This document shows, one piece after another, positions 3,016 to 16,626 of a DNA stretch of 40,521 nucleotides; the first letter of the stretch is position 1; each line of letters begins with the position of its first letter. The stretch covers positions 1 to 40,521 of the forward strand of contig ONKP01000007.1 in assembly GCA_900318405.1 (NCBI GenBank), given 5' to 3'. Under the pieces are notes generated by a model, which was given only the letters and a program-made list of their open reading frames with translations, had not been told where the DNA came from and made no database searches. The stretch is from an uncultured Eubacteriales bacterium (GTDB lineage: Bacteria; Bacillota; Clostridia; Lachnospirales; Lachnospiraceae). The position numbers and the translations under genes are program-made.

Positions 3016-3798
3016 TTATTCATGATCCTTTTCGCTGCCAGGATAGATCAGTTCTACACCTGATTTATGGAAGAGTTCTGTCCAGCGATCATCCGGCCTT
3101 CTGTCCGTGATAACCCCGCTGACTTCCTCCACACCTGCCGTGCGGGTAAAAGCCGTACTGTCGAATTTGCTGCCGTCAAGCACCAGATAGCTCTTCGCCG
3201 AGCACTGCAGCGCTTTTTTCTTCATACGGGAGAACGTCTCAAAAGAATCCATGATCCCGCGCTCATAATCAAGGCCCTTACAGGATATGAAAGCCTTGTC
3301 AACGAAATAATTCTCCGCGGTTTCCTCTGCCATGGTTCCGACCAGGGCAAGGTATCCGCTCTTCAGCATGCCGCCCGTGGAGATCAGGTTCCAGTCAGGT
3401 ATCTCCGAAAGCTCGAGAAGGATCTCAATGGAATTCGTGACAACCGTCAGCTTCTGCTTATTCCTGAGTGCCTTGGCGATAAACAGGTCTGTGGAACTGG
3501 CGTCGAGCATGATATGATCGCCGTCGTGCACGAGCTCTGCCGCGATATTTGCAATCTTCTGCTTCTCCGCTACATTTTTTCTGCTGCGAATCGTCAGCGG
3601 CATATCAAAGCCCACATTCTCATTAAGGATTGCGCCGCCATAGCTCTTTGTGGCGTATCCGTCAGCCTCAAGCTTTTCCAGATCCCTTCGTATCGTCTCC
3701 TCAGATACTTTAAACCGATGGCTCAACTCACTGACAACCACACGTTTCTCATCCTGGAGCTCTTCAAGGATCAGATTCCTTCTCTCAAGTGCCAGCAC
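3016..3798 (-). CDS. DeoR-family transcriptional regulator, last gene of the microcompartment cluster
   Basis: DeoR proteins sense phosphorylated sugars. This 260-residue member has the N-terminal winged helix (about 1-57; ERRNLILEELQDEKRVVVSE, then VSEETIRRDLEKLEADGYATKSYGGA) and the C-terminal isomerase-like sensor domain with the family motifs DHIMLDASST and LVGTMAEE. The start is GTG at 3798, with AGGAG seven bases upstream. It lies 45 bases after the PduT-like shell gene on the same strand. In GRM5-type fucose/rhamnose loci a DeoR gene ends the cluster in the same way, so it probably controls the two microcompartment promoters. The effector is likely a sugar phosphate, by inference. Confidence 0.92.
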   Translation of the reverse strand: MLALERRNLILEELQDEKRVVVSELSHRFKVSEETIRRDLEKLEADGYATKSYGGAILNENVGFDMPLTIRSRKNVAEKQKIANIAAELVHDGDHIMLDASSTDLFIAKALRNKQKLTVVTNSIEILLELSEIPDWNLISTGGMLKSGYLALVGTMAEETAENYFVDKAFISCKGLDYERGIMDSFETFSRMKKKALQCSAKSYLVLDGSKFDSTAFTRTAGVEEVSGVITDRRPDDRWTELFHKSGVELIYPGSEKDHE

Positions 3799-3843
3799 GA
3801 TCGTACTCCTGTTCTATTATCAGATATGTATGCAGGCTGCGTA

Positions 3844-4392
3844 TCACAGGATGGTGCGAATGATCTTCTCATCCGGATGTGCGATGACGGAAGAATCGAG
3901 GAACATCCCCTTCTCTCCCGACAGCTGCTTTGCCTTCTCGATGGAAGCTGTTACAGCGGAAACCTCGCCGGTGATGACCATGAATGATTTTCCGCACATA
4001 CCCTTTGCGAGACGAAGCTCAATGACATTGACGATTGCCGTCTTTGCTGCCATATCTGCTGCCTCGATCAGAGAAGCGACATCAAATGTCTCGAGGATGC
4101 CGAGTGCATCGACATGGTCTACTGATGTAGCTCCATAGATTGCGGGGAACAGCGACTCATGCGGATTGCCGAGAACGAAATTATCGATCAGATCATATTC
4201 GTATTCGGTGCTTGCCGCCTCAACTGCGGCTTTAACAGCGCTGAGATCTCCGGTAATGATGGCGATATACTTTCCGGGGCATACCGTCTGCGCTTCGACG
4301 ATATCGACTTCCGAAGTCTTGACCATCTTATCAGCTGCCGTGATGCCGGTCGGTATGCTTTTGAACTCAACCATTCCGATTGCTCTGCTCAT
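3844..4392 (-). CDS. PduT-like tandem-domain (trimeric) shell protein, BMC-T
   Basis: 182 residues with two BMC domains (about 1-90 and 95-182). Trimers of such proteins fill hexagonal sites in the shell. Cys38 (in VEAQTVCPGKY) matches the cysteine that, in PduT, lines the pore and holds a [4Fe-4S] cluster at the trimer axis. Its neighbour 17 bases upstream is the PduS-like flavo-iron-sulfur protein, the usual pairing for moving electrons across the shell to recycle NAD+ or reduce cobalamin. ATG at 4392 has AAAGGA about 12 bases upstream. Confidence 0.93.
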   Translation of the reverse strand: MSRAIGMVEFKSIPTGITAADKMVKTSEVDIVEAQTVCPGKYIAIITGDLSAVKAAVEAASTEYEYDLIDNFVLGNPHESLFPAIYGATSVDHVDALGILETFDVASLIEAADMAAKTAIVNVIELRLAKGMCGKSFMVITGEVSAVTASIEKAKQLSGEKGMFLDSSVIAHPDEKIIRTIL

Positions 4393-4409
4393 TACAGTGC
4401 TCGTCCTTT

Positions 4410-5741
4410 CTATCTCTTCTCGATGCGGATATAATCATCTGTCACATTGGTGACAACGCCGGGAAGGGATGCATGCATGGCAACGCTGAGACCGTCACCT
4501 GGCTTCGCTATCATCTGCCGGTATTCAACCGTATCGCCGATTTTTACAATGGGGATCGCAGGTGCGCCGATATGCTGCCGAAGCATAACGGTAACCGTAT
4601 CCTCCGGCTGCAGTTCATCATCCAGCGGAGCCGGAAGATCATACTTCGACAGTCCGAGACGTGCCATCAGACGCTCCTCTGGAACCTTGCGATACTCTCT
4701 GGATTCACGGACCGGAACTGCCTCAACCTTCGGCGGTTTGATCCCTTTCTTCTTCAGTCCGGCTTTGTATTCACCGATCAGCGTCCTCGGTGCCAGATCC
4801 TGCGGACATGCATACATTTCACACACGCCGCATCCGGAACAGAAATTCGTATTCAGGAACGGATTGAGATCCTGGAAATCAGCATTGGAAGCCGAGCGCA
4901 TGAAACGCGCGGGGTCGATCGGATGACCCAGTGCATGTCTCGGGCACATGTTCGTACATGTCTCACACTGACAGCATATGGATGCCGCCCGCTTCAGATC
5001 AATGGATGTTTTCCGTTTCTTCTTCATGACAACGGGGTGGTCCTGCGGCAGTACGAGGATTGCATTTGTCGTCTTCGTCACACGCCCTGACGGGGGCTGA
5101 ATGCGTCCCATCATGGGTCCGCCGACAAAATAAACCGGATCCTTGCACGTCACATCTCCCGCCAGGTCGACGACAGACTTGAAGCTGCAGCCGACAGATA
5201 CCGGAACCGTAACCGGATGGGTGACCTCACCGATAACCGTCAGATATTTGAAGGTGACCGGCTTTCTCTCCACAACAGCACGGTAAATGTTGTACATTGT
5301 CTCTACATTGTATACAATGCACCCCTGCTCGATGGGAAGTCCGCCGGGACGCACAACACGTCCGGTGCACTCATAGATCAGTACAACCTCATCACCCATG
5401 GGATATACTTCCTGGAGATAGTGAATGTGGATCTCCGGATATTTATCCACTTCTTTCCTGATCGCCGCAATGGCCTCTTTATAGGTTCCCTTGACGCCGA
5501 TCACAGCCTGCTTTGCCCCGGTAACCTGCACAACCATATGCAGACCGGCGATAATCTCATCCGCATGCACCGTGATCAGTCTTCTGTGCGGCTGAAGCAG
5601 GGGCTCACACTCCGCACAGTTTAACAGAATGGTATCTGCATTTTTATTCAGTTTTGCATAGGACGGGAAACCGGCACCACCGGCACCTACGACGCCGCCC
5701 TCACGCAGTCTTTTCTGAAATTCTTCGAAATCAATATCCAT
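4410..5741 (-). CDS. PduS/RnfC-like flavin and iron-sulfur oxidoreductase
   Basis: 443 residues. The N-terminal half resembles RnfC/complex I 51-kDa (GGVVGAGGAGFPSYAK, glycine-rich nucleotide/FMN region near 13-30). Two [4Fe-4S] motifs follow in the middle (CCQCETCTNMCP and CSGCGVCEMYACP) and a SLBB/RnfC-type tail ends the protein. In Pdu compartments PduS supplies electrons, for cobalamin reduction and probably NAD(H) recycling, and docks on PduT. ATG at 5741 is chosen because GGAG stands six bases upstream; an ATG four codons earlier has no ribosome site. No gene for its electron partner is seen. The 76 bases upstream hold direct GTCGGC repeats only. Confidence 0.9.
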   Translation of the reverse strand: MDIDFEEFQKRLREGGVVGAGGAGFPSYAKLNKNADTILLNCAECEPLLQPHRRLITVHADEIIAGLHMVVQVTGAKQAVIGVKGTYKEAIAAIRKEVDKYPEIHIHYLQEVYPMGDEVVLIYECTGRVVRPGGLPIEQGCIVYNVETMYNIYRAVVERKPVTFKYLTVIGEVTHPVTVPVSVGCSFKSVVDLAGDVTCKDPVYFVGGPMMGRIQPPSGRVTKTTNAILVLPQDHPVVMKKKRKTSIDLKRAASICCQCETCTNMCPRHALGHPIDPARFMRSASNADFQDLNPFLNTNFCSGCGVCEMYACPQDLAPRTLIGEYKAGLKKKGIKPPKVEAVPVRESREYRKVPEERLMARLGLSKYDLPAPLDDELQPEDTVTVMLRQHIGAPAIPIVKIGDTVEYRQMIAKPGDGLSVAMHASLPGVVTNVTDDYIRIEKR

Positions 5742-5817
5742 GCACTGCTCCATTCCGGTTATCCGCCGACAGTAAAGGCCGACGGGTTATTTTCTATTTA
5801 AGAATGCTTAACAACCG

Positions 5818-6105
5818 TTATGTGTCTTCTTCTGCGCCGCTTTCAAACACGCCGCCGTCATCGATGATACCCACAATGGCTGCATCCACAGGGGCATCCT
5901 GCATATCCGCTCCGATGCGGGCGGAACTCCCCTGAACTACGATCACATATTCCCCGATACCAGCGCCTACCAGATCTATGGCAATGATCTGACGCGTATC
6001 GGCTGCCATATGACGCAGAGGCTCAACGATCATAAATTTGCTACCGATCAGTTTCTCGCTCTTGCGGGTAGAGATCAGGCTGCCAACGACCTTGCCTGCT
6101 ATCAT
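5818..6105 (-). CDS. Pentameric vertex shell protein (BMC-P, EutN/CcmL family)
   Basis: 95 residues beginning MIAGKVVGSLISTRKSEKLIG, the standard EutN/CcmL start, with the LVGAGIGEYVIVVQGSSAR core. Pentamers cap the vertices of the polyhedral shell. AGGAGG directly before the ATG at 6105 decides the start; the frame is open further upstream but that part does not resemble the family. It is the only BMC-P in the locus, unlike planctomycete-type clusters that encode three. Confidence 0.95.
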   Translation of the reverse strand: MIAGKVVGSLISTRKSEKLIGSKFMIVEPLRHMAADTRQIIAIDLVGAGIGEYVIVVQGSSARIGADMQDAPVDAAIVGIIDDGGVFESGAEEDT

Positions 6106-6341
6106 ATTTCCTCCTACCGGGAAAAAACCATCTGAAATCTTCATGCCCATATCGCATGGCAGATACAAATGCTCTTCCAGTTAATTTCATAAGTTACGAC
6201 ACCGGATGATCTCCGGAATGACAAAAGTACGCAGCCGCAACCGGAACGGGATCTCCCGGTGCACCCGGCTCGGCTGCGATTAAGAACATCTCTGTATCGA
6301 TACCTGATTTCTGTATCTGACAGTTAAGCCTTCCCTGCTTT
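6106..6341 (-). other. 236-bp gap between PduL and BMC-P genes, no convincing gene
   Basis: Every other gap within the aldolase-to-DeoR block is about 105 bases or less. The minus strand has one open stretch (6194-6340) encoding SGIDTEMFLIAAEPGAPGDP-like residues, with no good ribosome site before its ATG at about 6289. GC-rich inverted pieces (CCGG, GCCG/CGGC) occur around 6225-6280. It may be a decayed gene or a structured spacer; I do not call a protein. Confidence 0.4.
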
Positions 6342-6986
6342 TCAGCGGATGATACGTACGGTATCTCCCTGCTTAATACCGGCAGCATTGGCTTCATCGG
6401 TATCGATGTGCATTTCAAGACTGAAGCTCGGATCTACACGGATAACCACATGATTAAAGATCGTTCCGCGTTCATTATCTGCCTTTACAGAAACAATGTC
6501 TCCGTTCTTAAGTCCGGCAGCCTCAGCATCCGCAGGGGTCATGTGAATATGACGCATGGCGACGATGGCGCCCTCCTGCAGATAAAGAGCTCCCTTGGGG
6601 CCAACAATGGCGATCGGAGCGCTTCCCTTCAGATCTCCCGACTGACGGATCGGTGCTTTGATACCGAGCGTGCGGGCATCTGTAGCGGAAATCTCAACCT
6701 GTGTCTTGCTTCTGACAGGTCCGAGAATGCGGACATTTTCGATCGCGCGAAGCTTAAGGCCGACAATCGTAACCTGCTCGTTAGATGCGAACTGGCCGCC
6801 CATCAGATCCTTCTTCTTCGTCAGCTGATATCCCTTGCCGAAAAGAGCCTCTACATGTTCCTGTGTCAGATGGACATGTCTGGCAGATACGCCTACCGGA
6901 ACGAGAAACCCGTTATCGCGTTCTTCGCTCTGATTGATGGCCTCAAAGACCAATCTCGTAATCTCTTCTACCTGATTCTGGTCCAT
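6342..6986 (-). CDS. pduL: PduL-type phosphotransacylase with encapsulation peptide
   Basis: PduL exchanges CoA and phosphate on acyl groups, regenerating CoA inside the compartment and yielding acyl-phosphate for ATP formation. 214 residues: an amphipathic N-terminal helix (QVEEITRLVFEAIN, about 5-18) that serves as an encapsulation peptide, then two beta-barrel PduL domains. Zinc/active-site histidines are visible at 37 and 39 (SARHVHLT), 146 and 148 (MRHIHMT) and 193 (EMHIDTDEAN). ATG at 6986 with AAAGGTG five bases upstream. The N-terminal peptide marks it as the compartment form rather than the cytosolic one. Confidence 0.95.
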   Translation of the reverse strand: MDQNQVEEITRLVFEAINQSEERDNGFLVPVGVSARHVHLTQEHVEALFGKGYQLTKKKDLMGGQFASNEQVTIVGLKLRAIENVRILGPVRSKTQVEISATDARTLGIKAPIRQSGDLKGSAPIAIVGPKGALYLQEGAIVAMRHIHMTPADAEAAGLKNGDIVSVKADNERGTIFNHVVIRVDPSFSLEMHIDTDEANAAGIKQGDTVRIIR

Positions 6987-7017
6987 GACGACACCTTTCT
7001 CCTCTGATAATAAGTCT

Positions 7018-7068
7018 GCGGCAATCGCCGCTTTCGACTACAGCTCAGACGGACAGGAGTTCTGTCCG
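7018..7068 (-). other. Pair of hairpins between shell gene and pduL
   Basis: The gap before the extended shell protein's pduL neighbour holds GCGGC-GATT-GCCGC (7018-7031) and GGACAG-AACTC-CTGTCC with flanking pairs (7050-7068). Neither is followed by a T run. Such structures can set 3' ends by processing, which would keep shell mRNA above enzyme mRNA; this is inference. Confidence 0.45.
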
Positions 7069-7092
7069 CCTGAAGGTTTCTGATCGAATAAA

Positions 7093-7656
7093 TTACTTAT
7101 CCAGATGAGGCAGGATCATCTCAACATCGCTGTGCGGTCTCGGGATGACGTGTGTAGCTACCAGCTCGCCAAGACGGGAAGCATTGTTGCCACCAGCCTC
7201 AACAGCGGACTTAACAGCGCCTACATCTCCACGAACCATAACGGTTACGAGTCCGGAACCGATTCTCTCGGTACCGATCAGGTTAACGTTAGCAGCTTTG
7301 CACATTGCATCGGCTGCCTCAATAGCAGCTACGAGACCTCTGGTTTCAACCATTCCTAAAGCTTCCTGTGACATTGTAGTTTCCTCCTTGACATAGTGTC
7401 TTGCGGGCTCTGCCGCTTTTACTGGTTTATTATCTGCCTTTGTATTCTCCGGTGCGGCTGCGGTGCCTGTTGCTGCGGCCGGAGCCGCTTTGGTAACTGC
7501 TTCCGCTGCCGCTGCGGCCGGAGCCGCTTTGGTAACTGATTCTGTGGCCGTCTTCGCAGGAGCTTCGGGCTTCTTGGATTGCGGCTGCTTCTTTTCTGCC
7601 GCTGCCTGCTGCTGGCCGCCGGCTGCGCCGACTTTTGTCCTCTTTATTTCCGCCAT
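7093..7656 (-). CDS. Hexameric shell protein (BMC-H) with long Ala/Lys/Pro N-terminal extension
   Basis: 187 residues. The last 93 form a canonical PduA/PduJ-type BMC domain ([14 protein letters not shown], pore motif ERIGSGL). The first 94 are low-complexity Ala/Lys/Gln/Pro, with a repeated VTKAAPAAA unit coded by a 28-bp direct repeat. ATG at 7656 has TAGGAG seven bases upstream and overlaps the preceding shell gene by 13 bases. Immediately before the BMC-domain methionine (7374), the linker KEETT is encoded by a full AAGGAGG Shine-Dalgarno at eight-base spacing, so a 93-residue unextended protein is probably also made from 7093-7374. The extension may point to one shell face and tether cargo or neighbours. 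Confidence 0.92.
7383..7389 (-). promoter_or_regulatory. Internal Shine-Dalgarno for the short shell protein
   Basis: AAGGAGG lies inside the reading frame of the extended BMC-H gene, eight bases before ATG 7374. From that ATG the protein starts [13 protein letters not shown], almost identical to the start of the separate shell gene at 8344. Two products from one gene are therefore likely. Confidence 0.75.
7472..7538. repeat. Two 28-bp direct repeats in the shell-protein extension
   Basis: Bases 7472-7499 and 7511-7538 are identical, with a 39-bp period (13 codons). They encode the repeated VTKAAPAAA segment, so the linker seems to have grown by in-frame duplication. Confidence 0.9.
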
Positions 7657-7958
7657 GCGTAATCTCCTACCGTTCTCCATCTGCTTGCGCTCAGTTGAAC
7701 CATTTTGACGATTTCCTCATGGGGGTTCGCGATGACCGCATGCAGCGTAGGTTTTTTAATTCCTTTTTCGACAGCTGCGTCCACAGCCGTCGTCACCGAT
7801 GAGACATCGCCCTCGATGATCAGCGTTACCAGACGACCGCCAAGCTTCCTTTCCCAGGATGCGAGGTTCACGTCTGCAGCCTTGCACATGATGTCTACGG
7901 CATCCATGGCAGCAGTAACGCCTACGATCTCAACGAAGCCATACGCTTTTCCACCCAT
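7644..7958 (-). CDS. Hexameric shell protein (BMC-H), divergent pore
   Basis: 104 residues starting [20 protein letters not shown]. One BMC domain (about 1-88) with an LGGR sequence at the pore loop instead of the usual GSG, then a 16-residue tail ([15 protein letters not shown]) that overlaps the next gene by 13 bases. ATG at 7958 is preceded by AGGA; an upstream in-frame GTG is less likely. Different pore residues from the neighbouring paralogues suggest a different permeant. The 104 bases upstream hold TTGCAG direct repeats but no promoter. Confidence 0.9.
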
Positions 7959-8062
7959 GGTTTCCTGTCCTTCCTGCTGCACAGTTTTCGATGTCTTTCA
8001 GAATATCACCGTCGGTCATTCGCTGCAATTACTGCAACAGGCCCGCGGCTTACTTCTGCAGA

Positions 8063-8344
8063 TTACTCGAGATTGTGCGGCAGAATATACTCAACATCTT
8101 CGTGCGGTCTCGGGATGACATGGGTAGCTACGAGCTCGCCCAGACGGGAAGCAGCTGCGCTTCCGGCCTCAACGGCTGCCTTGGTAGCTCCTACATCGCC
8201 TCTTACCAGAACGGTAACAAGTCCTGATCCGATCTTCTCGGTTCCTACCAGATGAACCTCAGCAGCCTTTGTCATGGCATCGGCCGCCTCGATCGCAGCG
8301 GTAAGACCTCTGGTCTCGATCATTCCCAAAGCTTCCTGTGACAT
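8063..8344 (-). CDS. Canonical hexameric shell protein (BMC-H, PduA/PduJ type)
   Basis: 93 residues: [20 protein letters not shown], pore motif [18 protein letters not shown] and C-terminal [15 protein letters not shown]. It is the standard single-domain shell hexamer, likely the main facet component. It is nearly identical in length and start to the short product of the extended gene at 7093-7374, which points to a recent duplication. AGGAGG lies eight bases before the ATG. Confidence 0.96.
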
Positions 8345-8359
8345 TTTTCTGTCCTCCTG

Positions 8360-8677
8360 TTAAAACTTATCCAGCGCACTGATCTTCAGCATCTTCTCCA
8401 CACCCGGATCATCCGGATTCGGAATGATATAATGCTGAACGACGCCGCTGATTTCATTTGCTTTTTTGATTCCTGCCTCCATAGCCGCCTCAACTTCCGA
8501 TACATTTCCACGGAATTTGATGGTTACCAGAAGCGGAACCGGAAGTTCGTCGGCATGCGCTGGCTTGTTCTTGTCGAACACTTCCAGATGAACATTGGCT
8601 GCCTTGCATCCCGCATCGGCGGCTACAAAAGCACATGTAAGTCCGAATACTTCCAGGATACCAACAGCCTGTGCCAT
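8360..8677 (-). CDS. Hexameric shell protein (BMC-H) with enlarged pore loop
   Basis: 105 residues starting MAQAVGILEVFGLTCAFVAA. The BMC fold is recognisable, but where paralogues have K-I-G-S-G-L it carries a longer stretch (DKNKPAHADELPVPLLV), adding about nine residues and removing the GSG pore motif. The hexamer pore would be wider, or lined by His/Asp/Glu. It is the first shell gene after the alcohol dehydrogenase, and 15 bases separate it from the next shell gene. The ribosome site (AGGAG) is about 15 bases upstream of the ATG, longer than usual. Confidence 0.9.
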   Translation of the reverse strand: MAQAVGILEVFGLTCAFVAADAGCKAANVHLEVFDKNKPAHADELPVPLLVTIKFRGNVSEVEAAMEAGIKKANEISGVVQHYIIPNPDDPGVEKMLKISALDKF

Positions 8678-8709
8678 ATCTGTGCCTGCGCTCCTTTCCT
8701 GTTTCCTGT

Positions 8710-8768
8710 ATTATACACCGGAAACGGCTCAGAATTCCGGTCCGGCAGAATCACATGCATCATGTGAT
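8710..8768 (-). promoter_or_regulatory. Hairpin and possible internal promoter between ADH and shell genes
   Basis: Directly after the ADH stop the minus strand forms ATCACATG-ATG-CATGTGAT (8750-8768). A perfect TATAAT follows at 8710-8715, but no good -35 lies 16-18 bases upstream of it. It could raise shell transcription over enzyme transcription; weak. Confidence 0.35.
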
Positions 8769-10018
8769 CAGTGATTGTTTGTATTGCCGTCGAGCGGAAC
8801 GTTCGTTACGGCAACTTTCAGTCCCTTCTGGGCGAGCGCAAACTCATGCGCCTCATTGATCTTGTTCAGCGGGAATGCGTCGGTGATCAGATCCGTAACA
8901 GGAAGGCCGATCTCCTTTGCTCTCCTCAGGAAGTCAAACGTCGTCGCGTAATCTCTCAGGGTGTATACCCAGGATCCTACAAGGTTGATCTCCTTGGAGC
9001 AGAGATCAAAGTGAGGATTGATCGTAGCGTCGCCGTTGTTGATAAAGAATCCCAGCTCGCAGAGACCGCCGCCGTTGCGGATGAAATGATAGATATTGCT
9101 GTGTGCGATCGGAGAACCCGTGCACTGGAAAGCAAAATCTGCAAGATGTCCGCCGAAAGCGTCCTTCACGGCATTTGCCAGATTGTCAATGCCCTTGTAC
9201 TGCATGAAGTTGACGGTATTCGTAGCGCCCAGTCTCTTTGAGAACTCGAGACGTGACTCATTGCCATCAACGGTTACGATGTTCTCAATGCCCATCGTAC
9301 GAAGTACTGCCACGCAGAGAAGTCCGATCGGTCCGCAGCCCTGTACGCATACGCGGCTGTTGAAGCGGAGAATTCCGGTCGTCTTCGCACGCTCTACAGC
9401 ATGTACAAGAACGGCTGCGGGCTCGATGATGATTCTGCTCTTCAGATCCATGTCGGATACATTGAAGAACGTTGATCCTCTGCTGCCCTTGATAAAAATG
9501 TAATCGGAGAACCATCCGTTGAGATGGGTGTCATCATCCGGAATGAGTCCGTATACATCAGCTGCGCCGACATTCTTTTTGTTCAGATCGAACATCGTGA
9601 TGTCCGGATCATCCTTGAACATCATGCAGGTGACGATCTTGTCGCCGACCTTCACGGGTTTTCCTGCGGAGTCGGTCTTTACGTTCTTGCCGAGCTGTAC
9701 GATCTCGCCGGTGCCCTCATGTCCCAGTGCAACCGGGATGAGGCCGAACGGATCTTTCTTGAACTCATGCTGGTCTGTACCGCAGATACCGGTACCTTCT
9801 ACTCTTACGAGCATATCGTCATCGCCAACCGGTGGAATCGGGAATTCCTTCACATCAAAATGCTGGAGTGCTGTGAGCATAGCTACATGCGCCGTCTTCG
9901 GAACACCTGCAGCAGCACTCGAAGCGCTGTATGAAGAAGCCGGAGCTGCAGATGTGCCGCTCATACCGGCAAGCACCTGTCTGACGATCTCCTCAATATT
10001 CTGTGAATCCATTGCCAT
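8768..10018 (-). CDS. Encapsulated zinc-dependent alcohol dehydrogenase
   Basis: 416 residues of the medium-chain (MDR) family. It probably reduces the short aldehyde to its alcohol (for example lactaldehyde to 1,2-propanediol) and regenerates NAD+ inside the shell. Order: encapsulation peptide (NIEEIVRQVLAGM, about 7-19), a Ser/Ala-rich linker (20-40), then the catalytic domain with zinc ligands Cys79 (GTGICGTDQ), His100 and Glu101 (GHEGTGEI). The Rossmann motif GCGPIG follows. The four-cysteine structural-zinc lobe is absent. ATG at 10018 has AAAGGAG six bases upstream. Most Pdu/Eut loci instead use iron-type alcohol dehydrogenases (PduQ/EutG); a Zn type matches GRM5-like loci. Confidence 0.92.
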   Translation of the reverse strand: MAMDSQNIEEIVRQVLAGMSGTSAAPASSYSASSAAAGVPKTAHVAMLTALQHFDVKEFPIPPVGDDDMLVRVEGTGICGTDQHEFKKDPFGLIPVALGHEGTGEIVQLGKNVKTDSAGKPVKVGDKIVTCMMFKDDPDITMFDLNKKNVGAADVYGLIPDDDTHLNGWFSDYIFIKGSRGSTFFNVSDMDLKSRIIIEPAAVLVHAVERAKTTGILRFNSRVCVQGCGPIGLLCVAVLRTMGIENIVTVDGNESRLEFSKRLGATNTVNFMQYKGIDNLANAVKDAFGGHLADFAFQCTGSPIAHSNIYHFIRNGGGLCELGFFINNGDATINPHFDLCSKEINLVGSWVYTLRDYATTFDFLRRAKEIGLPVTDLITDAFPLNKINEAHEFALAQKGLKVAVTNVPLDGNTNNH

Positions 10019-10034
10019 GTCTTTCTCCTTTCCG

Positions 10035-11426
10035 TTACCGGATGCAGAGGCTGTCTACCATTACGCAGCGTCTTCTCTTCGTAAATGTCCTTGCGCTTGT
10101 AAGGCCTTCACCGGTTCTGGAAGCGATCGTGAAGGTTGCAAATCCCTCACCGCCGTAGCCAAGTGAAGCATAGCTCGGTCCGTTCTTAACCAGAATGGCC
10201 GTATCCATTGCTTTTGCGTACTTGGTGATACGTACGACATCATGAGAATGGATATGTGCGGAATGACGGTTGCCATGCTCAAGCCATACGCATTTCTCAA
10301 GTGCATCATCAAAATCTGTAGCCGGAACGATACCGAGGATCGGCATCATCAGCTCTGTAGCGATCAGCGGGTTCTCTTTCTCGCCGATGAATGTGATGCA
10401 GCGGATATCCGGTCCTACGTTAACACCGATCTTTGCAAGAAGCGTTCTCGCATCACGGCCTACGCACTTACGGTTCAGCTTGCCCTTCTCATCCATAACG
10501 GTGCGGATCAGTGCATCCTGCTCTTCCTTGGAAGCCAGGTAGCATCCCTGCTCGGTCACCATGTAATGAAGAAGCTCATCGACAATGGACTGTACCGCTA
10601 CGATTTCCTTCTCTGCGATGCAGGGGAGGTTGTTATCAAATGTACATCCGTTGACGATATCCTCTGCTGCCTTGCGGATATCAGCGGTCTCGTCAACGAG
10701 TGCCGGAGGATTGCCGGCGCCTGCACCGATGCCTCTCTTACCGGAGGAAAGAACCGCGGTAACTACGCCAGGGCCGCCGGTTGCTACCAGAAGGTTGATA
10801 TCAGGATGTTTCATCATGATACCGCTTGTCTGGAGTGTGGGCTTCTCAACGGTAACGGCGATGTTGTCAGGGCCGCCTGCCTCGAGTGAGCACTCATTCA
10901 TCATATTGATCGCATAGATCGTTGTCTTTACAGCCTGCGGATGCGGGTTGAAAACAACGGTGTTGCCTGCAGCGAACATACCGATCGTATTGCAGAAGAT
11001 GGTCTCCTGCGGATTGGTGCACGGTGTGATGGCACCGATGACACCGAACGGCCCCTCTTCCACAAGGGTCAGTCCGCGATCACCTGAATAAGCTTCTGTC
11101 GTGATATCCTCGGTTCCCGGAATCTTGTCAGCGCAGAGATGATTCTTCAGAATCTTGTGGCCGACATTGCCCATTCCGGTCTCGTCAACCGCCATGCGGG
11201 CCATCACTTCTGCTTCCTGATGGATCCTGCGGCGCATAACCTGAATAACTTTCTCTCTCTGATCCAGCGACATATTGCGGACGATCTGCTCCGATTTCTT
11301 AGCCGCTGCGATCGCATCATTCATATCTGCGAAGATACCATGTTTTCCCTTCGGGGAATCATTGATGCTCATCTTCGCCATGACTTCACGAACGACGCTC
11401 TGTACCATGCTTTCATCAACTGGCAC
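10035..11426 (-). CDS. Encapsulated CoA-acylating aldehyde dehydrogenase (PduP/EutE family)
   Basis: 463 residues. It oxidises the aldehyde to acyl-CoA with NAD+ (from lactaldehyde this would be lactoyl-CoA; from propanal, propanoyl-CoA). The N-terminus is an encapsulation peptide (ESMVQSVVREVMAKM, about 5-19). The catalytic Cys269 lies in DNNLPCIAEKE and the cofactor region shows GVIGAITPCTNP. GTG at 11426 is the start, with AAGGAGG eight bases upstream. It lies 48 bases after the aldolase and 16 bases before the alcohol dehydrogenase; the two dehydrogenases form a redox-balanced dismutation pair. Confidence 0.95.
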   Translation of the reverse strand: MPVDESMVQSVVREVMAKMSINDSPKGKHGIFADMNDAIAAAKKSEQIVRNMSLDQREKVIQVMRRRIHQEAEVMARMAVDETGMGNVGHKILKNHLCADKIPGTEDITTEAYSGDRGLTLVEEGPFGVIGAITPCTNPQETIFCNTIGMFAAGNTVVFNPHPQAVKTTIYAINMMNECSLEAGGPDNIAVTVEKPTLQTSGIMMKHPDINLLVATGGPGVVTAVLSSGKRGIGAGAGNPPALVDETADIRKAAEDIVNGCTFDNNLPCIAEKEIVAVQSIVDELLHYMVTEQGCYLASKEEQDALIRTVMDEKGKLNRKCVGRDARTLLAKIGVNVGPDIRCITFIGEKENPLIATELMMPILGIVPATDFDDALEKCVWLEHGNRHSAHIHSHDVVRITKYAKAMDTAILVKNGPSYASLGYGGEGFATFTIASRTGEGLTSARTFTKRRRCVMVDSLCIR

Positions 11427-11474
11427 GATGAAACCCTCCTTCAGTTGAATTTTTCACGTATGATCAGTTTCTGA

Positions 11475-12317
11475 TCAGTTCATTCCCAGCTGTTCCATAA
11501 CTTTTCTAGTGATCTCAGCAACCTGATCAGCGCTTACGGAATTGTTCTCAGCGCCGTGTGCATAGGTGGAACCTGTGTGCTGGCCAAGGCCGTCATTCTC
11601 GCAGCTGCCGCAGTTATGGCAGTTCAGTGAGCCCTTGTTCTGGCAGAGGTTTGCCGGATGCTTGCCCGGAAGACCCATCTTACGACGAATCTCATACAGT
11701 CTCTGAACAGTAGCCTTGTCGAATTCCTTCGGGCCGCCGAGCTGTTTGCTCTGATACAGCAGCTGTGCGTAGAACTCAACGGACTCCATCTTCATATATG
11801 CGGAAAGCAGATCTGTGGAATAGGTGAGTGCGCCATGGCTCTCCAGAAGTACAGCGTCGAAATAAGGGAGATATTTCTCAACTGCATCCGGGATCTCATT
11901 GGTGGAAGGTGTTCCGTAAGGAGCGATCGGTACGCATCCGAGAGCGATAACAGCTTCCGGCATGATCGGCTGTGTCAGCGGAATGCCTGCAATAGCGAAG
12001 GATGTGGCATATACCGGATGAGCATGAACAACAGATCCTACGTCAGGTCTCTTCTCATATACACGCATATGCATCTTGATCTCCGATGAAGGCCTGAATC
12101 CCGGATTTGCCTGGATTACCTCTCCCTTCTCGTTAACCTTGCAGATGTACTCAGGTGTCATAAATCCCTTTGATACACCGGTCGGTGTGCAAAGGAAGGT
12201 ATGATCATCCAGCTTTACAGAAATGTTGCCATCGTTTGCTGCTACCATGTTACGGTTGTAGATTCTCTTGCCGATGTCGCAGATCTGTTTCTTGATTTCG
12301 AACTCATTTACTGCCAT
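11475..12317 (-). CDS. Class II aldolase (fuculose/rhamnulose-1-phosphate type) with C-terminal encapsulation peptide
   Basis: 280 residues; likely the signature enzyme, splitting a ketose-1-phosphate into DHAP and a short aldehyde. Domain (1-215): catalytic Glu79 (SSEIKMH), zinc ligands His98 and His100 (VVHAHPVY) and His161 (ESHGAL). Then a cysteine-rich segment CX7CX2CX2C (Cys225, 233, 236, 239) and, after a linker, an amphipathic peptide (VSADQVAEITRKVMEQLG, 261-278) that should target it to the shell. Substrate could be L-fuculose-1-P, L-rhamnulose-1-P or 5-deoxyribulose-1-P; sequence alone does not decide. It is the first gene after a consensus promoter. ATG at 12317 has AAGGAGG nearby. 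Confidence 0.93.
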   Translation of the reverse strand: MAVNEFEIKKQICDIGKRIYNRNMVAANDGNISVKLDDHTFLCTPTGVSKGFMTPEYICKVNEKGEVIQANPGFRPSSEIKMHMRVYEKRPDVGSVVHAHPVYATSFAIAGIPLTQPIMPEAVIALGCVPIAPYGTPSTNEIPDAVEKYLPYFDAVLLESHGALTYSTDLLSAYMKMESVEFYAQLLYQSKQLGGPKEFDKATVQRLYEIRRKMGLPGKHPANLCQNKGSLNCHNCGSCENDGLGQHTGSTYAHGAENNSVSADQVAEITRKVMEQLGMN

Positions 12318-12438
12318 TTGATGCTCCTCCTTGATTTATTGGTTCATGTTTCTGCTGCATCTCATTGTAATCCGCCCTGTCTCCTGCGGCAGAACGGGCA
12401 TGTGGATTCATGGATCTTCTGGTGCAAATCCTGTTGTC

Positions 12439-12467
12439 ATTATAGAAGTAGGTATGCAATCTGTCAA
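12439..12467 (-). promoter_or_regulatory. Promoter P1 of the aldolase-to-deoR operon
   Basis: Perfect TTGACA (12462-12467), a 17-base spacer and perfect TATAAT (12439-12444). Transcription would begin near 12432, giving a leader of about 115 bases before the aldolase gene. The +-strand sequence GGTATGCAATCTGTCAA (12451-12467), covering -35 and spacer, is matched at 15 of 17 positions in P2. A consensus promoter on a catabolic operon implies that a repressor holds it off. Confidence 0.9.
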
Positions 12468-12482
12468 TAGATCGACGTTGTT

Positions 12483-12501
12483 TTGTGTTGTTTTATGTGA
12501 G
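12483..12501 (-). promoter_or_regulatory. Operator-like motif upstream of P1
   Basis: CTCACATAAAACAACACAA reads on the minus strand, 15 bases upstream of the P1 -35. It matches 17 of 19 bases of the motif at 16608-16626 near P2, there in the opposite orientation. The AAAACAAC half is repeated (AAAACAACACAAAACAAC). Confidence 0.55.
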
Positions 12502-12503
12502 AA

Positions 12504-12983
12504 TTATGTGGGGTTCACAGGTTTGGATATGACTCTCTCCCACGGCATGACATCTCCCGGCTCCCTCAGATACTCGAGAATATCAGTGACGCCTTCCCCG
12601 GTCTTTGAATCGACAAAAAATATCTTCCGGCACCCGGCCAGTCTGAGCCATCCCTCAGCTCTCCGCACATTGGCGTAAGGATGGTGGATCTTCGTCACGA
12701 TCCCGACGACCTCCCGGTTGCACGCCGCCGTACACCCCGGCGGAAAAAGCGTAAACGGTTCCGTCGACGACAGCAGAAGTCCCACGACATCGGCCTCATA
12801 GGTAAACATGGCCAGAGCGTGCCCCAGCCATTTCGTCTGCGCGTACTCACCCGGCGTATCAATGATCACATCAAAATGATTGACGTACTGCGTCTTGTGG
12901 TATGCGATCTTCTCACCCTTCAGCGCCTGCGTCAGTGTTGTTTTTCCCGCTTCACTCCGGCCCATCAGGGCTATTTTTCTCAT
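12504..12983 (-). CDS. EutP/PduV-like small P-loop protein
   Basis: 159 residues. A P-loop (GRSEAGKTT, 8-16), a DTPGEY switch-II-like motif near 43-48 and a VTK motif in place of NKxD mark the EutP/PduV family. Proposed roles in the family differ: PduV has been linked to filament attachment and movement of compartments, and EutP to acetate kinase activity. Its stop and the next promoter are about 40 bases apart. It overlaps the EutS-like shell gene by one base (TGATG), so the two are translationally coupled, a pairing conserved in eut and pdu operons. Confidence 0.9.
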   Translation of the reverse strand: MRKIALMGRSEAGKTTLTQALKGEKIAYHKTQYVNHFDVIIDTPGEYAQTKWLGHALAMFTYEADVVGLLLSSTEPFTLFPPGCTAACNREVVGIVTKIHHPYANVRRAEGWLRLAGCRKIFFVDSKTGEGVTDILEYLREPGDVMPWERVISKPVNPT

Positions 12984-13360
12984 CAGGTCTTTGTGAGTGG
13001 TACACAGCTGTATCCCAGCTCACCCTCCACATAGTCCAGCACAGCGTGGATCGCGGCTTCCACCTCTGACACCGTGCCCGTGATGATCAGGGTTCCCGAA
13101 AAACGATCGACAAAACCCAGCTGGATGCCGGCGGACTTGGAAGCGATATCTCCCATAATAATAGCCGTCTCGCACGGGGTGACCGTCATGATGCCGATCG
13201 CCGCATTGCCGTAGTCCACCGTCGGATCCAGGCCCAGCTTCGTGTACATCTCCGGCACCGGTCCGGCGATCACATGTGCGAGTGTGATCTGTTTGCCGGG
13301 TACAAGCTCCTGAATGATCCGCTGCTTGGTCTCCGGCGTCATATGATCCGTATATCCCAT
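12983..13360 (-). CDS. EutS/PduU-like circularly permuted shell protein (BMC-H)
   Basis: 125 residues. An N-terminal segment (1-35) that forms the beta-barrel plug in EutS/PduU is followed by the permuted BMC domain (GPVPEMYTKLGLDP, then NAAIGIMTVTPCETAIIMGDIA and LIITGTVSEVEAAI). Such shell proteins are bent or plugged hexamers and are thought to interact with EutP/PduV, its coupled neighbour. AGGAG lies six bases before the ATG. The 148 bases upstream contain nothing I recognise. Confidence 0.92.
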   Translation of the reverse strand: MGYTDHMTPETKQRIIQELVPGKQITLAHVIAGPVPEMYTKLGLDPTVDYGNAAIGIMTVTPCETAIIMGDIASKSAGIQLGFVDRFSGTLIITGTVSEVEAAIHAVLDYVEGELGYSCVPLTKT

Positions 13361-13508
13361 TACTCTCTCCTGTTCATTCTTTCTGCTGCTGTGTCCGGGA
13401 ATGCTGTATAACTTCTGTCAAAAATAATGCCGCTGCGCCGTCCCCGCCGGTGCAGAACTCCGCTCCGGCAGATAAAAAACCTACAGCATGGGCAGCTCAT
13501 TTTTCAGC

Positions 13509-14282
13509 TTACGGAATATAGTGTGTCTCTTCAAAAGGATCCCTGTAGCGCGGCACCTTCCGGTCCGCCTCACCGACGCCGAGGAAATCAAGCATATGCG
13601 CCGGGTCTGCATTGAGGATCAGGCTGCGGGGGAAATTCACCTCTTCGACAACTCTCTCCGCATACGTAAAATCTCCGATATGCGCCGGTCCGTGGCTGTC
13701 GCTGGAAAGGATCACGGGTACCTTCTTCTCCCTGCATGCCTTCAGCATGGCCAGTATGTTCGGCCGCACGTCGCCCCGCCATCCGTCCGGCGCAAGAGAG
13801 GCATTGTTTACCTCGAGTGCGACGCCGTATTCACCGGCTGCTTCCGCCAGGCGGTCATAGTCCAGAGGATAACGTGTGTCATCCGGATGGCCGATAATTT
13901 TTACACAGGGATGGCGCATGGCAAGCGCATAGGCCCGTGTATTGGCTTCCCGGCCTCCCGGCTTCAGGCATCCGTAGTGGATGCTCGCGATCACGTAGTC
14001 AAGATCCTGAAGGATATCGTCCGGCAGATCCAGCCGTCCGTCATAATCCATGATATTGGATTCCGCCCCGAGGCAGACCCGAATGCCGGAACGAAGCCGT
14101 GCCGATTTGGAGATGCCGCGGAAATAAGACGTTGTCCCTGCCGCCATCGTTCCCGGACCGTGATCTGTGATGCCAAGGATCGTCATGCCTTTTGCGGCAG
14201 CGGCCTTTGCCATCTCCGCGATCGTGGCACTCGTCCCGTGACCGCTCGCTATGGTATGCGTATGCATATCGCATGTATACAT
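13509..14282 (-). CDS. PHP-domain phosphoesterase (YcdX-like)
   Basis: 257 residues of the PHP superfamily. Metal-binding motifs are visible in order: DMHTHT near the N-terminus with a following His (SGHGTS), TDHGPG, GAESNI, ASIHYG, GHPDD and SSDSHGP near the C-terminus. These hydrolases act on phosphoesters including sugar phosphates; histidinol-phosphatase and polymerase PHP domains are relatives. The ATG at 14282 (MYTCDMHTHT) has AGGAGG 12 bases upstream. It sits inside the microcompartment cluster but has no encapsulation peptide, so it likely acts in the cytosol, perhaps on an accumulated sugar phosphate. The link is inferred from position. Confidence 0.85.
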   Translation of the reverse strand: MYTCDMHTHTIASGHGTSATIAEMAKAAAAKGMTILGITDHGPGTMAAGTTSYFRGISKSARLRSGIRVCLGAESNIMDYDGRLDLPDDILQDLDYVIASIHYGCLKPGGREANTRAYALAMRHPCVKIIGHPDDTRYPLDYDRLAEAAGEYGVALEVNNASLAPDGWRGDVRPNILAMLKACREKKVPVILSSDSHGPAHIGDFTYAERVVEEVNFPRSLILNADPAHMLDFLGVGEADRKVPRYRDPFEETHYIP

Positions 14283-14436
14283 GATCCTGCTGTTCCTCCT
14301 GTCAGCCCTTCCGAAGTGGATTTTCAGCCGACTGCTGTATCCGGCACGCATTCAATTCTGCAGCCGGAATACTGTACTCAGCGCCGATTCCGTTCTGCAG
14401 CCGGCACGCTGTGTCCGACGCACAGTCCCCGGTCTG
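14283..14436 (-). other. 154-bp spacer with short direct repeats
   Basis: TTCTGCAGCCGG occurs at 14356-14367 and 14393-14404, and CCGGCACGC occurs twice as well. No promoter or gene is evident. Confidence 0.5.
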
Positions 14437-15168
14437 TCAACCGCGGCTCATGACATCGCGCGCCATGATAGCCGCCTGTACGGAAATCGGGCACTGCATC
14501 CGGTAAACCGGCACCCGGTTGATCAGCATATTGATCAGACCGTTTTCCTGCGTTCTGTGCTCATATCCGGCTGCACGGAAAGACTGGTCCGCTGTCAGTT
14601 CCCGTGCTTCCCGCCATGAAATCCTGTGTATTTCCGTCCGCTCCGCCTTGCCGATAAAGCAGACAGCCTGCACCGGCATGCGGATATTCACATTTCGATG
14701 GAATTTACCGTCCCAGGGCGTTCCGTATACATATACGCGATCACCCAGAAAACGGATCAGCGGCTTGTCATCATTGACGATCAGTGCCGCATCGCCGAAA
14801 GCCTTCTTCCACATCGTTGCGTGTGTGGATTTCCCCGAGCCGGAGGGTCCGGAAAAAAGATAGGCCTTTCCGTCCAGAGCCACCGCTGAAGAATGAAAAA
14901 AGAGCACGTCCCGGTACAGGGCCTGCTCACAAAATGCCCGGTAGACTGCGATAGAGGCAAGGTATTCGTCGGGAAACTGCGTTCCCTCCAGACGTCTCTC
15001 TTCATCAATCATCGCCGGCGTCAGCCTCACGATGATATCAGGACGTCCTCTGCCCGGCTCTTCTGTCCGATAAGGCTCCATCTGTTTCTGTATATAAGAG
15101 GAGAGCTCTGCGCCCGCCTGCTCCGTATCAACACCGACCGTCAGATCGGCCAGTCTGTATACCCTCAT
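14437..15168 (-). CDS. HPr-kinase-like ATP-binding protein
   Basis: 243 residues if started at the ATG 15168 (MRVYRLADL); an ATG 11 codons earlier is also possible and neither has a strong ribosome site. The middle shows an HprK/PEP-carboxykinase type P-loop: FHSSAVALDGKAYLFSG, then PSGSGKSTHATMWK and IVNDDKPLIRF. Small proteins with only this kinase core occur beside many unrelated Firmicute genes and their substrates are mostly unknown. Here it lies between the PHP gene and the adenosyltransferase, so it may phosphorylate a small molecule or protein used by the pathway. No HPr-binding N-terminal domain is present. Confidence 0.75.
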   Translation of the reverse strand: MRVYRLADLTVGVDTEQAGAELSSYIQKQMEPYRTEEPGRGRPDIIVRLTPAMIDEERRLEGTQFPDEYLASIAVYRAFCEQALYRDVLFFHSSAVALDGKAYLFSGPSGSGKSTHATMWKKAFGDAALIVNDDKPLIRFLGDRVYVYGTPWDGKFHRNVNIRMPVQAVCFIGKAERTEIHRISWREARELTADQSFRAAGYEHRTQENGLINMLINRVPVYRMQCPISVQAAIMARDVMSRG

Positions 15169-15267
15169 TGACACCGTATCCCGTCTGCACGAACGCTGCA
15201 TCTGTTTCCGATTTCGCCGATGCGGCTTTGACGCATCAGTTCCTGTTTCTGCCGATGCATCTATGCA

Positions 15268-15849
15268 TCAGTTTTCGATCTTCCGTCTGCCGCTGTTTTT
15301 CATGACATCCCGGATAACTTCCTGTCGCACACCCTCGCTGCGGATATTGTCCGCCCGATAATCAGCATACCGCGCTGCGACATATAGAAAATCTGACAGG
15401 CGATTCATGTACTGCATGGCTTTTTTATCCGCCACATACTTCTGCGCCACCACGCGGAAACGCCGCTCGGCACGTCTTGCAATGGATCTGGCCACGTCCA
15501 GTCTCGCCGACTCCTCACATCCGCCGTAAAGGACAAAATCCTTCGGACGCGGGAAAGAATCTTCCATGTGATCGATCCACGCCTCCAGCTGCTCCGTTTC
15601 CTTCTCATCGAAGCGGAATTCCTTCTTCAGCGGGGCCGCAATACCGGACATGATATGCATCAGTGTCTTCTGAATATGCGTCAGCTGAACCCGGAGATCA
15701 TCCTCCGACAAAACCTTCGCAAGTCCTATATGGCTGTTCAGCTCATCAATGGTTCCGAGAAGCTCGATCCTGTCGTCTGTCTTCAGAACACTCTGGCCGT
15801 TCAGCAGCTGGGTTCTGCCGTTGTCCCCGTTCTTTGTGTATACCTTCAT
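15268..15849 (-). CDS. PduO-type cob(I)alamin adenosyltransferase
   Basis: 193 residues. It makes adenosylcobalamin from ATP and reduced cobalamin. The N-terminal TKNGDNGRTQLL matches the ATP-binding loop of PduO-type enzymes, and ARSIARRAERR with NRLSDFLYVAARYAD matches the C-terminal signature. AAGGA lies nine bases before the ATG. Its presence is puzzling because no adenosylcobalamin-dependent enzyme is encoded in the window; it predicts a diol dehydratase or similar enzyme elsewhere. The neighbouring hbpS-like gene corresponds to the C-terminal domain that is fused to this enzyme in full-length PduO. Confidence 0.92.
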   Translation of the reverse strand: MKVYTKNGDNGRTQLLNGQSVLKTDDRIELLGTIDELNSHIGLAKVLSEDDLRVQLTHIQKTLMHIMSGIAAPLKKEFRFDEKETEQLEAWIDHMEDSFPRPKDFVLYGGCEESARLDVARSIARRAERRFRVVAQKYVADKKAMQYMNRLSDFLYVAARYADYRADNIRSEGVRQEVIRDVMKNSGRRKIEN

Positions 15850-15978
15850 TCTCTGCTGTCCTTCAGCAAGTCAAATCGCCGGTATCCTGTTCACCTCAGG
15901 CCTGCTGCATACATCGCAAAGCGATAAAGCAGAAAGCCTTACGTTATATCGTCATATGTGCGCAGCGCACATGTCATC

Positions 15979-16452
15979 TTATTTTCCGGATGTCTGTCCT
16001 GTCATCTCACGGAAAATACGCTCGCCGTATTCCGCAATATCGGCATCCTGTTCTCCGGTGCCGCCGCTTACGCCGAGGCCGCCGACAACCTTATTGCCGA
16101 TCTTCAGCGGAACACCGCCGCCGAAACCGATGATCCGTCCGCGCTCCATGGACTCCAGTCCGTAGAATGTACCGCCCGGCTGTACAAGCTTATGCACCTC
16201 CGTCGTGGGCATTTTTACGGCAACAGCCGTATAGGCCTTCTGCGTCGCAACCTCATAGCTCACCAGAAAAGCATCTTCCATGACATGGACAGCCACCGGA
16301 TTGCCATGCGCATCATCCACAGCGATCACACACGCCATACCCTTGCTGCGCGCATAATCTTCCACGCGTTCCATCAGTTTTTTCGCCGTGCTGAGGGAGA
16401 CCGAGCCCCTGATCTGACTCACGATATTCTCTGCCAGTCTGTTCTCATCCAT
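15979..16452 (-). CDS. HbpS/GlcG-family protein (stand-alone PduO C-terminal domain)
   Basis: 157 residues of the HbpS/GlcG/PduO-C family (VSLSTAKKLMERVEDYARSK, then GRIIGFGGGVPLKIGNKVVGG and VSGGTGEQD). Relatives bind heme or cobalamin, and in PduO this domain is fused to the adenosyltransferase. ATG at 16452 follows GGGAGG by 11 bases. The frame is open upstream to 16596, but that part would precede the P2 transcription start, so it is not coding. First gene of the P2 transcript; 129 bases separate it from the adenosyltransferase. Confidence 0.88.
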   Translation of the reverse strand: MDENRLAENIVSQIRGSVSLSTAKKLMERVEDYARSKGMACVIAVDDAHGNPVAVHVMEDAFLVSYEVATQKAYTAVAVKMPTTEVHKLVQPGGTFYGLESMERGRIIGFGGGVPLKIGNKVVGGLGVSGGTGEQDADIAEYGERIFREMTGQTSGK

Positions 16453-16542
16453 GAAAAATAAAGCCTCCCGTCCAGCATTATATAAACGCTTCGAATCGCC
16501 ATCGGGATCTCCACGCAGAAAATATTCGCAGAATCCCGGATA

Positions 16543-16556
16543 CGGCTTCGAAGCCG
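16543..16556. promoter_or_regulatory. 14-bp perfect palindrome in the hbpS leader
   Basis: CGGCTTCGAAGCCG begins about 13 bases after the predicted P2 start site. It could be an operator or an RNA stem at the 5' end of the leader. Confidence 0.45.
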
Positions 16557-16575
16557 ACAATATCAGACCTTTTTC

Positions 16576-16604
16576 AGTATAGGATGTGGTATGCAAATTG
16601 TCAA
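16576..16604 (-). promoter_or_regulatory. Promoter P2 of the hbpS-to-eutP module
   Basis: TTGACA (16599-16604), 17-base spacer and TATACT (16576-16581). The +-strand GGTATGCAAATTGTCAA (16588-16604) differs from the P1 equivalent at only two positions. Transcription would start near 16569. The shared -35/spacer sequence beyond the promoter hexamers suggests a common regulator. Confidence 0.88.
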
Positions 16605-16607
16605 CAT

Positions 16608-16626
16608 CTCACACAAAACCACACAA
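16608..16626 (+). promoter_or_regulatory. Operator-like motif upstream of P2
   Basis: CTCACACAAAACCACACAA on the plus strand, three bases upstream of the P2 -35. It matches the P1-associated motif at 17 of 19 bases but in the opposite orientation and 12 bases closer to the promoter. Confidence 0.55.

Follow-up and report, generated by a model that had tools for sequence, protein, structure and literature searches.

The 40,521-nucleotide stretch analysed here (the window) is an entire contig, C33, of an uncultured Lachnospiraceae genome (2.18 Mb in 91 contigs, 91.7% complete). It carries an 18-gene microcompartment operon on the minus strand, from approximately 16452 to 3016, centred on a class II aldolase. 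We read it as a rearranged form of the known fucose/rhamnose compartment, with its dehydratases encoded elsewhere. The analysis establishes the gene content, the gene order found in relatives, the tag-like sequences, the phylogeny and the co-occurrence; the substrate, the pathway, the packaging and the direction of the rearrangement are inferred. The best reading, to which we assign a probability of 0.83, is a GRM5/PVM-like rhamnose/fucose compartment with off-locus dehydratases.

The scanned proteins of the window include neither a glycyl-radical enzyme (GRE) or activase nor a diol dehydratase. The first-pass annotation of this sequence had described an aldolase-centred microcompartment with neither a GRE nor a B12 diol dehydratase gene, and every gene that it named is present. 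The absence is true of C33, but not of the genome: compartment parts are spread across four contigs (C33, C32, C45 and C88). The annotation had placed the second dehydration step elsewhere or considered it absent; the former holds, while the B12-type genes on C32 and the GRE part on C45 argue against the latter.

Dehydratases and shell proteins encoded outside the locus

A genome search for pduCDE and for a B12-independent diol dehydratase, as the annotation had proposed, located pduCDE on C32 and part of a GRE on C45. The B12-type genes (pduC, pduD, pduE and pduG) lie approximately 68-73 kb into the 102.6 kb contig C32, approximately 30 kb from its nearer end, and the single PF02286 match of the genome is found there. 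In the 17 kb around this match (L014), NCBIfam scores are 962 bits for PduC, 264 bits for PduD and 910 bits for the PduG reactivase; PduE scores 174 bits, just below the cut-off of 183, and a 111-residue open reading frame (ORF) at the place of pduH has no NCBIfam match at 1e-30. PduD begins MQASQELVQKITEEVIRQLQ, an amphipathic, tag-like N-terminus in the style of encapsulation tags, and PduD starts are tag-like by eye in 28/28 rows listed (25 genomes). A tmRNA gene (L014 13131-13509) lies approximately 3.3 kb from this module.

The GRE on C45 is represented by its C-terminal 432 residues, right at the contig end, with the activase next to it. It is one of three PFL-like matches in the genome, the others being HypD on C69 (1466 bits) and PflB on C34 (1153 bits). 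Of 37 PDB sequences, the diol dehydratase 5i2a, which we take to be the Roseburia inulinivorans GRM5 enzyme, matches the C45 part best (636 bits), and this part is 58-77% identical to the GREs of aldolase loci. Compared with HypD, it contains an extra stretch. This is like the insertion of approximately 60 residues that is predicted to serve targeting in GRM3-5 dehydratases, which are described in the relevant part of that account as having no N-terminal tag (PMC6325248). Regulator-like, sugar isomerase-like, transketolase-like and kinase-like ORFs (named from translations) occur near the C45 GRE and activase (L018).

Searched for PF00936, the genome has matches on C33 and C88 only. The two C88 shell proteins are 61% and 62% identical to a pair located between hbpS and pduC in a related locus (L062), and the next rows listed, self-hits aside, are at 31-50%; a third piece of the set thus seems to have been dispersed. 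The C88 pair (L015 7381-8088) adjoins a bile-salt-hydrolase-like (CBAH) gene.

Gene content of the operon

The operon reads, in order of transcription (the pdu-module place of the relatives is included at the first junction):

15979-16452, minus strand: HbpS/DUF336-like protein (PF03928, 1.2e-35; start from homology, ORF readable from 16596)
15850-15978, minus strand: hbpS-adenosyltransferase junction, the pdu-module place in L062-L065 (from gene order)
15268-15849, minus strand: PduO-type cob(I)alamin adenosyltransferase (TIGR00636, 162 bits, cut-off 108)
14437-15201, minus strand: HprK/ScmC-like protein (NCBIfam ScmC, 9.5e-07, below cut-off; no Pfam match)
13509-14351, minus strand: PHP-domain hydrolase (PF02811, 2e-14)
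12983-13360, minus strand: EutS/PduU-type shell protein (PF00936, 1.3e-13; NF012012, 108 bits, below the cut-off of 123)
12504-12983, minus strand: EutP/PduV-family protein (PF10662, 1.3e-45; TIGR02528, 132 bits, below the cut-off of 138)
11475-12317, minus strand: class II sugar-phosphate aldolase (PF00596, 6.5e-47; encapsulation-peptide-like C-terminal helix, tail DQVAEITRKVMEQLGM)
10035-11426, minus strand: CoA-acylating aldehyde dehydrogenase (AldDH; NF011927, 638 bits, cut-off 403)
8768-10018, minus strand: Zn alcohol dehydrogenase (ADH), candidate lactaldehyde reductase (PF00107, PF08240; tag-like N-terminal helix)
8360-8677, minus strand: BMC-H shell protein (PF00936, 4.6e-21)
8063-8344, minus strand: BMC-H shell protein (PF00936, 5.8e-30)
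7644-7982, minus strand: BMC-H shell protein (PF00936, 6.9e-20)
7093-7680, minus strand: BMC-H shell protein with an Ala/Lys-rich N-terminal extension (PF00936, 2.5e-30)
6342-6986, minus strand: PduL phosphotransacylase (NF011652, 271 bits, cut-off 209)
5818-6168, minus strand: BMC-P vertex protein (PF03319, 1e-27)
4410-5753, minus strand: PduS/RnfC-like flavo-iron-sulfur protein (PF01512, 7e-44; PF13375, PF13534)
3844-4392, minus strand: PduT-type tandem BMC protein (PF00936 twice; TIGR02526, 126 bits, below the cut-off of 250)
3016-3798, minus strand: DeoR-family regulator (PF00455, PF08220)

For hbpS, translation more probably starts at the ATG near 16452, since in L060, L063 and L065 the homology sets in at residue 48-49 of the longer ORF and in L064 at residue 32. 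By hydrophobic moment, the tag-like segments of PduD, the aldolase and the ADH rank in the top 1.4-2.7% of the windows of their own proteins, but that of the AldDH only in the top 15%. Of 80 aldolase tails (the window and 79 loci; that of L135 is too short), 27 have a CxxCxxC motif, and nothing was drawn from it.

The last of the four single-domain BMC proteins (7093-7680) has an extension of approximately 100 residues, followed by an in-frame ribosome-binding-like sequence and an internal Met, and it is possible from this arrangement, which resembles PduB/PduB', that two protein forms are made. A strict BMC-H core pattern found 50 cores in 43 of 81 sequences (the window and 80 loci), with an in-frame extension in 22 of the 50 and a ribosome-binding-like sequence in all 22 of these.

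Gene order and phylogeny in related loci

Related loci (L060-L139) are the best 80 from an aldolase scan of genome contigs, classed by full-length GRE and PduC searches. Forty-one have GRE only, 13 PduC only (upstream of the aldolase in 5, downstream in 8), 7 a downstream PduC together with GRE, and 19 neither. Where at least 9.9 kb is available on both sides (39 loci), a dehydratase is present in 38, and the lone exception, L080, has a GRE elsewhere in its genome (G158 C129). The 19 loci with neither are mostly short on one side; 15 of their genomes have PduC and/or GRE somewhere, G154 has neither, and G157, G164 and G168 have no PduC in a search for PduC only. In the seven loci with both (L085, L092, L093, L097, L124, L132 and L139), the aldolase core has GRE on its upstream side and PduC on its downstream side. 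EutS precedes the aldolase in many GRE loci too. The PHP gene, part of the operon here, lies upstream of the aldolase on the opposite strand in many other loci.

The closest relatives indicate where a pdu module probably once stood. In L063 and L065, the order is hbpS, pduC-D-G, adenosyltransferase. L062 differs in the shell-gene pair between hbpS and pduC, and L064 in a gap with unread bases at the same place; L066 has pduC-D-G followed by the adenosyltransferase, hbpS not being detected in the stretch examined (pduE and pduH were not scored separately in this comparison). The L061 contig starts at HprK, and a separate contig (L173) has pduC-D-G followed by an adenosyltransferase-like ORF. 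The window and L060 have hbpS next to the adenosyltransferase gene (gaps of 129 bp and approximately 35 bp, respectively), and the module is gone from there. The first-pass annotation had regarded the genes from hbpS to eutP as taking the place of the GRE; because the pdu module occupies the hbpS-adenosyltransferase junction in L062-L065, the genes on either side of it look rather like the flanks of a departed module, which was probably located between them in the window lineage.

In the L060 genome, PduC is encoded on C100 in other surroundings (L171), with cysteine-metabolism-like genes (named from translations) upstream, and the 6 kb examined around its RR-PatB neighbourhood, which flanks pduC in the window genome, contain no PduC (L183). 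GRE matches are present in the genomes of L060 (85%) and L061 (82%); none was found in those of L062-L066.

A tree built from 26 PduC proteins nests the C32 copy among in-locus ones: it groups with those of G151, L062 and L064 (98/93), within an eight-row clade (98/95) that also holds L063, L065, L066 and the off-locus copy of G150. A concatenated tree of five core proteins sets the window and L060 apart (support 100) and joins them to L061, L062 and L064 (support 95). The simplest reading would be that the in-locus pdu module is older, was lost in the ancestor of the window and L060, and was then re-sited or re-acquired.

Loss of the module from both loci could also mean that the compartment is a decaying relic, but this is the least probable of the explanations considered. 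All 18 genes of the operon are open and 64-96% identical to those of L060, strong operator-like and promoter-like sites precede the aldolase, and dehydratase genes have been retained elsewhere, with a PduD that has a tag-like start.

Co-occurrence of aldolase and dehydratases

In a sample of 150 genomes from the family of the window, 50 match the aldolase at an E value of 1e-30, and the 35 with a match of at least 69% identity were taken as positive (a threshold set after inspection of the list; fragment matches in G023 and G042 are included). None of the 15 genomes left out (best matches 42-66%) has PduC or GRE, and in the four of these examined (G085, G105, G003 and G060) no shell genes adjoin the aldolase.

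PduC is found in 12/150 genomes, all 12 among the 35 with the aldolase, and GRE in 27/150, 26 of them among the 35. One or both are present in 29/35 aldolase genomes versus 1/115 others (G119, which has a GRE shell locus with no aldolase). Fisher values are 4.8e-9 for PduC, 1.9e-20 for GRE and 5.8e-24 for either, and are only a guide because the genomes share descent. Aldolase and dehydratase are thus almost inseparable in the 150 genomes. The six aldolase genomes with no dehydratase have no shell genes in the 9.6-18 kb around the aldolase, and by eye the C-terminal helix is absent from five of the six, G090 having a tag-like tail. Among the 35, the check for shell genes beside the aldolase covered these six and the window genome.

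PduC, GRE and the aldolase occur together in 9/150 genomes, that of the window included. We tentatively suggest, at somewhat less than even odds, that one shell serves two unrelated radical dehydratases, either of which could be loaded, for instance according to B12 supply or oxygen exposure. If so, the signature enzyme used for typing loci would be exchangeable cargo; genomes with both dehydratases are a natural test of such an exchange.

Predicted promoters and operator

The operon likely comprises two transcription units, as judged from the following sites and a second promoter-like site ahead of hbpS (16604 to 16576, 11/12 matches); 20 promoter-like sites occur across the region, versus a shuffle mean of 13.6.

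12439-12467, minus strand: sigma-70-like promoter of the aldolase unit (TTGACA-17-TATAAT, 12/12 consensus matches)
12476-12495, plus strand: predicted DeoR-type operator, a tandem repeat ahead of the aldolase promoter (30.0 bits, 20-bp matrix)
16610-16625, minus strand: weak operator-like repeat by the promoter-like site ahead of hbpS (12.6 bits, p 0.054)

The matrix was trained on 67 aldolase upstream regions (79 before removal of near-duplicates), that of the window included, and 0.07 matches of at least 20 bits are expected per shuffled window. At this score, the motif TGTTGTTTTnTGTTGTTTT is found in 47/67 training regions, in 33/40 regions upstream of GRE outside the training set (starts estimated; counted without shuffles) and in 0/20 regions upstream of in-locus PduC. 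Tandem repeats of this kind are the usual operators of DeoR-family regulators, and we infer that the DeoR protein of the window may bind the repeat at 12476-12495.

Co-regulation of off-locus genes through this motif is supported for pduC in G150 (22.4 bits, p 0.002) and GRE in G151 (19.3 bits, p 0.008), but not for GRE in G150 (7.3 bits, p 0.51). Scans of the window, L014, L062, L063, L085 and L171 found no B12 riboswitch that reaches the Rfam gathering score.

Proposed pathway and alternatives

In the proposed pathway, rhamnulose-1-phosphate or fuculose-1-phosphate would arise in the cytosol and be cleaved by the class II aldolase in the shell to dihydroxyacetone phosphate (DHAP) and lactaldehyde. 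The Zn ADH would reduce lactaldehyde to 1,2-propanediol, which a propanediol dehydratase would convert to propionaldehyde; the acylating AldDH and PduL would then yield propionyl-CoA and propionyl-phosphate, the NADH of the AldDH step feeding the ADH. The dehydratase would come from outside the locus, as the C32 pduCDE product with its reactivase, the C45 GRE, or both, and would be packaged into the shell encoded by the window; the adenosyltransferase, and perhaps PduS, may serve the B12-type enzyme.

In this genome, rhaA has a rhamnulokinase-like gene beside it (named from translation), and a fucI-like gene is present too. Inspection by eye of the ORFs in the 16 kb surrounding rhaA revealed no aldolase, and the compartment aldolase is therefore a candidate for the rhamnose aldol step. 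The substrate would otherwise be assigned by analogy to the GRM5 model, as outlined in the sections of the literature drawn on here (PMC3557285, PMC6325248).

Several observations weigh against a rhamnose/fucose compartment served by off-locus dehydratases. The off-locus PduC of G150 groups with that of Bilifractor porci, L063 (99/95), rather than with that of the window, and one simple move is therefore unsupported. The N-terminal half of the C45 GRE was not found in the assembly and the contig end cuts the gene, so that the enzyme may not be whole. Matrix scans detected no operator ahead of C32 pduC (7.1 bits, p 0.22), nor ahead of the C88 pair, rhaA, rhaB or fucI. Finally, Ravcheev et al. 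concluded from 13 genomes that the dehydratase lies outside this pathway; PduCD was present in 10/13 and co-localised in 6/13, and a route with no dehydration was favoured (PMC6620236). The present counts favour dehydration as part of the pathway and bear on the published dispute as to whether propanediol is dehydrated in or out of the fucose/rhamnose compartment.

A dismutating aldolase compartment, as in the Erbilgin scenario for PVM, is the preference stated in the same portion of that report (PMC6620236): lactaldehyde would be converted to propanediol and lactoyl-CoA in the shell, and propanediol dehydrated outside or excreted. Such a compartment, also put forward in the annotation, would fit a locus that has no dehydratase and an off-locus pduC with no operator found ahead of it. 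We nevertheless consider it improbable, given the tag-like N-terminus of PduD in a genome with PF00936 genes on only two contigs, the in-locus pdu module of near relatives and the near inseparability of aldolase and dehydratase in the family; the gene set can be accounted for with no dismutation to lactoyl-CoA.

Less probable still is a 5-deoxyribose/methylthioribose compartment, in which MtnA would feed the aldolase to give DHAP and acetaldehyde and no dehydratase would be needed. An mtnA gene does lie at 18018-19118 on the minus strand, approximately 1.5 kb upstream of hbpS (TIGR00512, 416 bits), L064 also has mtnA preceding cysE, and mtnA is somewhat enriched in aldolase genomes (14/35 versus 25/115, p 0.029). 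However, the mtnA unit and the operon are set apart by an inverted repeat of 12 bp (16753-16800), after which the coding strand has T; the terminator scan did not list this repeat, whose loop of 24 nt is longer than that scan allows. Fourteen genomes have both genes; by the listed places, only G000 and G084 carry the two within 25 kb of each other on one contig. A single operon of mtnA and the window aldolase, as a 5-deoxyribose/DHAP shunt, was thus rejected, mtnA being in a separate unit and seldom linked to the aldolase in the family.

On C63, another mtnA lies immediately ahead of a separate class II aldolase, with 117 bp between the two matches (L170 5228-7594). With FucU-, DhaK-, DhaL- and transporter-like ORFs nearby (named from translations), this operon looks like a 5-deoxyribose or methylthioribose operon, and its co-regulation through the DeoR-type operator is unsupported.

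Comparison with known compartment types

Loci of the GRM5 type, PVM-like loci and one co-localised B12-type case have already been described in the parts of the literature considered (PMC4207490, PMC8217296, PMC8156839, PMC6620236). A limited search, at the level of titles and abstract openings, found no description of off-locus or double dehydratases for an aldolase compartment.

The resemblance to GRM5 noted in the annotation is borne out: in loci with GRE and activase upstream, the aldolase, AldDH, ADH, PduL, PduS, PduT and DeoR are approximately 45-83% identical (DeoR lowest), in mostly the same order. The GRM5 loci of Clostridium phytofermentans and R. inulinivorans, from the portions of the reports used here, share the aldolase, AldDH, Zn ADH, BMC-H set, PduL, BMC-P, PduS, PduT and DeoR, as well as DUF336 and PduU-type genes (PMC4207490, PMC3557285, PMC6325248). 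The PduU-type gene precedes the aldolase in C. phytofermentans, according to the passage concerned (PMC3557285). The window thus contains the class II aldolase and Zn-type ADH, PduS, PduT, DeoR and DUF336 of GRM5. Unlike GRM5, however, its scanned proteins include no GRE or activase (the part and activase being on C45), and its operon includes adenosyltransferase and HprK-like genes.

By gene content, the locus also agrees with the PVM-like group (Axen 2014) in its class II aldolase, its DeoR regulator and BMC-H genes that outnumber BMC-P; in the section of that work considered, a core alcohol dehydrogenase is described for one PVM-like locus only, whereas the window locus has one. The annotation had weighed its claim against a directly linked dehydratase, which the contig does not contain, and against a known type of identical composition, to which PVM-like loci come close. 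Clostridium methylpentosum likewise combines a B12-type dehydratase with a fucose/rhamnose aldolase compartment, but its genes are reported in the relevant passage to be co-localised (PMC6620236), whereas the window genome has them on separate contigs, and a GRE besides. Compartment types are named from in-locus enzymes; the window locus alone suggests that there is no dehydratase, which the genome contradicts, and other PVM-like loci may be similar cases.

PDU loci share the PduL, PduS, PduT, EutS/PduU and EutP/PduV types and the adenosyltransferase, with pduC, D, E and G elsewhere in the window genome. Unlike PDU, the window has an aldolase and Zn ADH core and DeoR, with no in-locus pduCDE and no PduB over the cut-off; PDU membership was rejected, pduCDE being only on C32. 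SPU membership was likewise rejected, neither a DeoC-type aldolase (PF01791) nor RpiB (PF02502) being among the Pfam matches of the locus.

The operon is flanked downstream by secE-nusG-rplK-rplA and upstream by cysE-mtnA-lgt-mfd. Two structured RNAs, both on the minus strand, exceed Rfam gathering scores in the window: a ribosomal L10 leader at 46-179 and a Clostridiales-1 RNA at 35339-35503.

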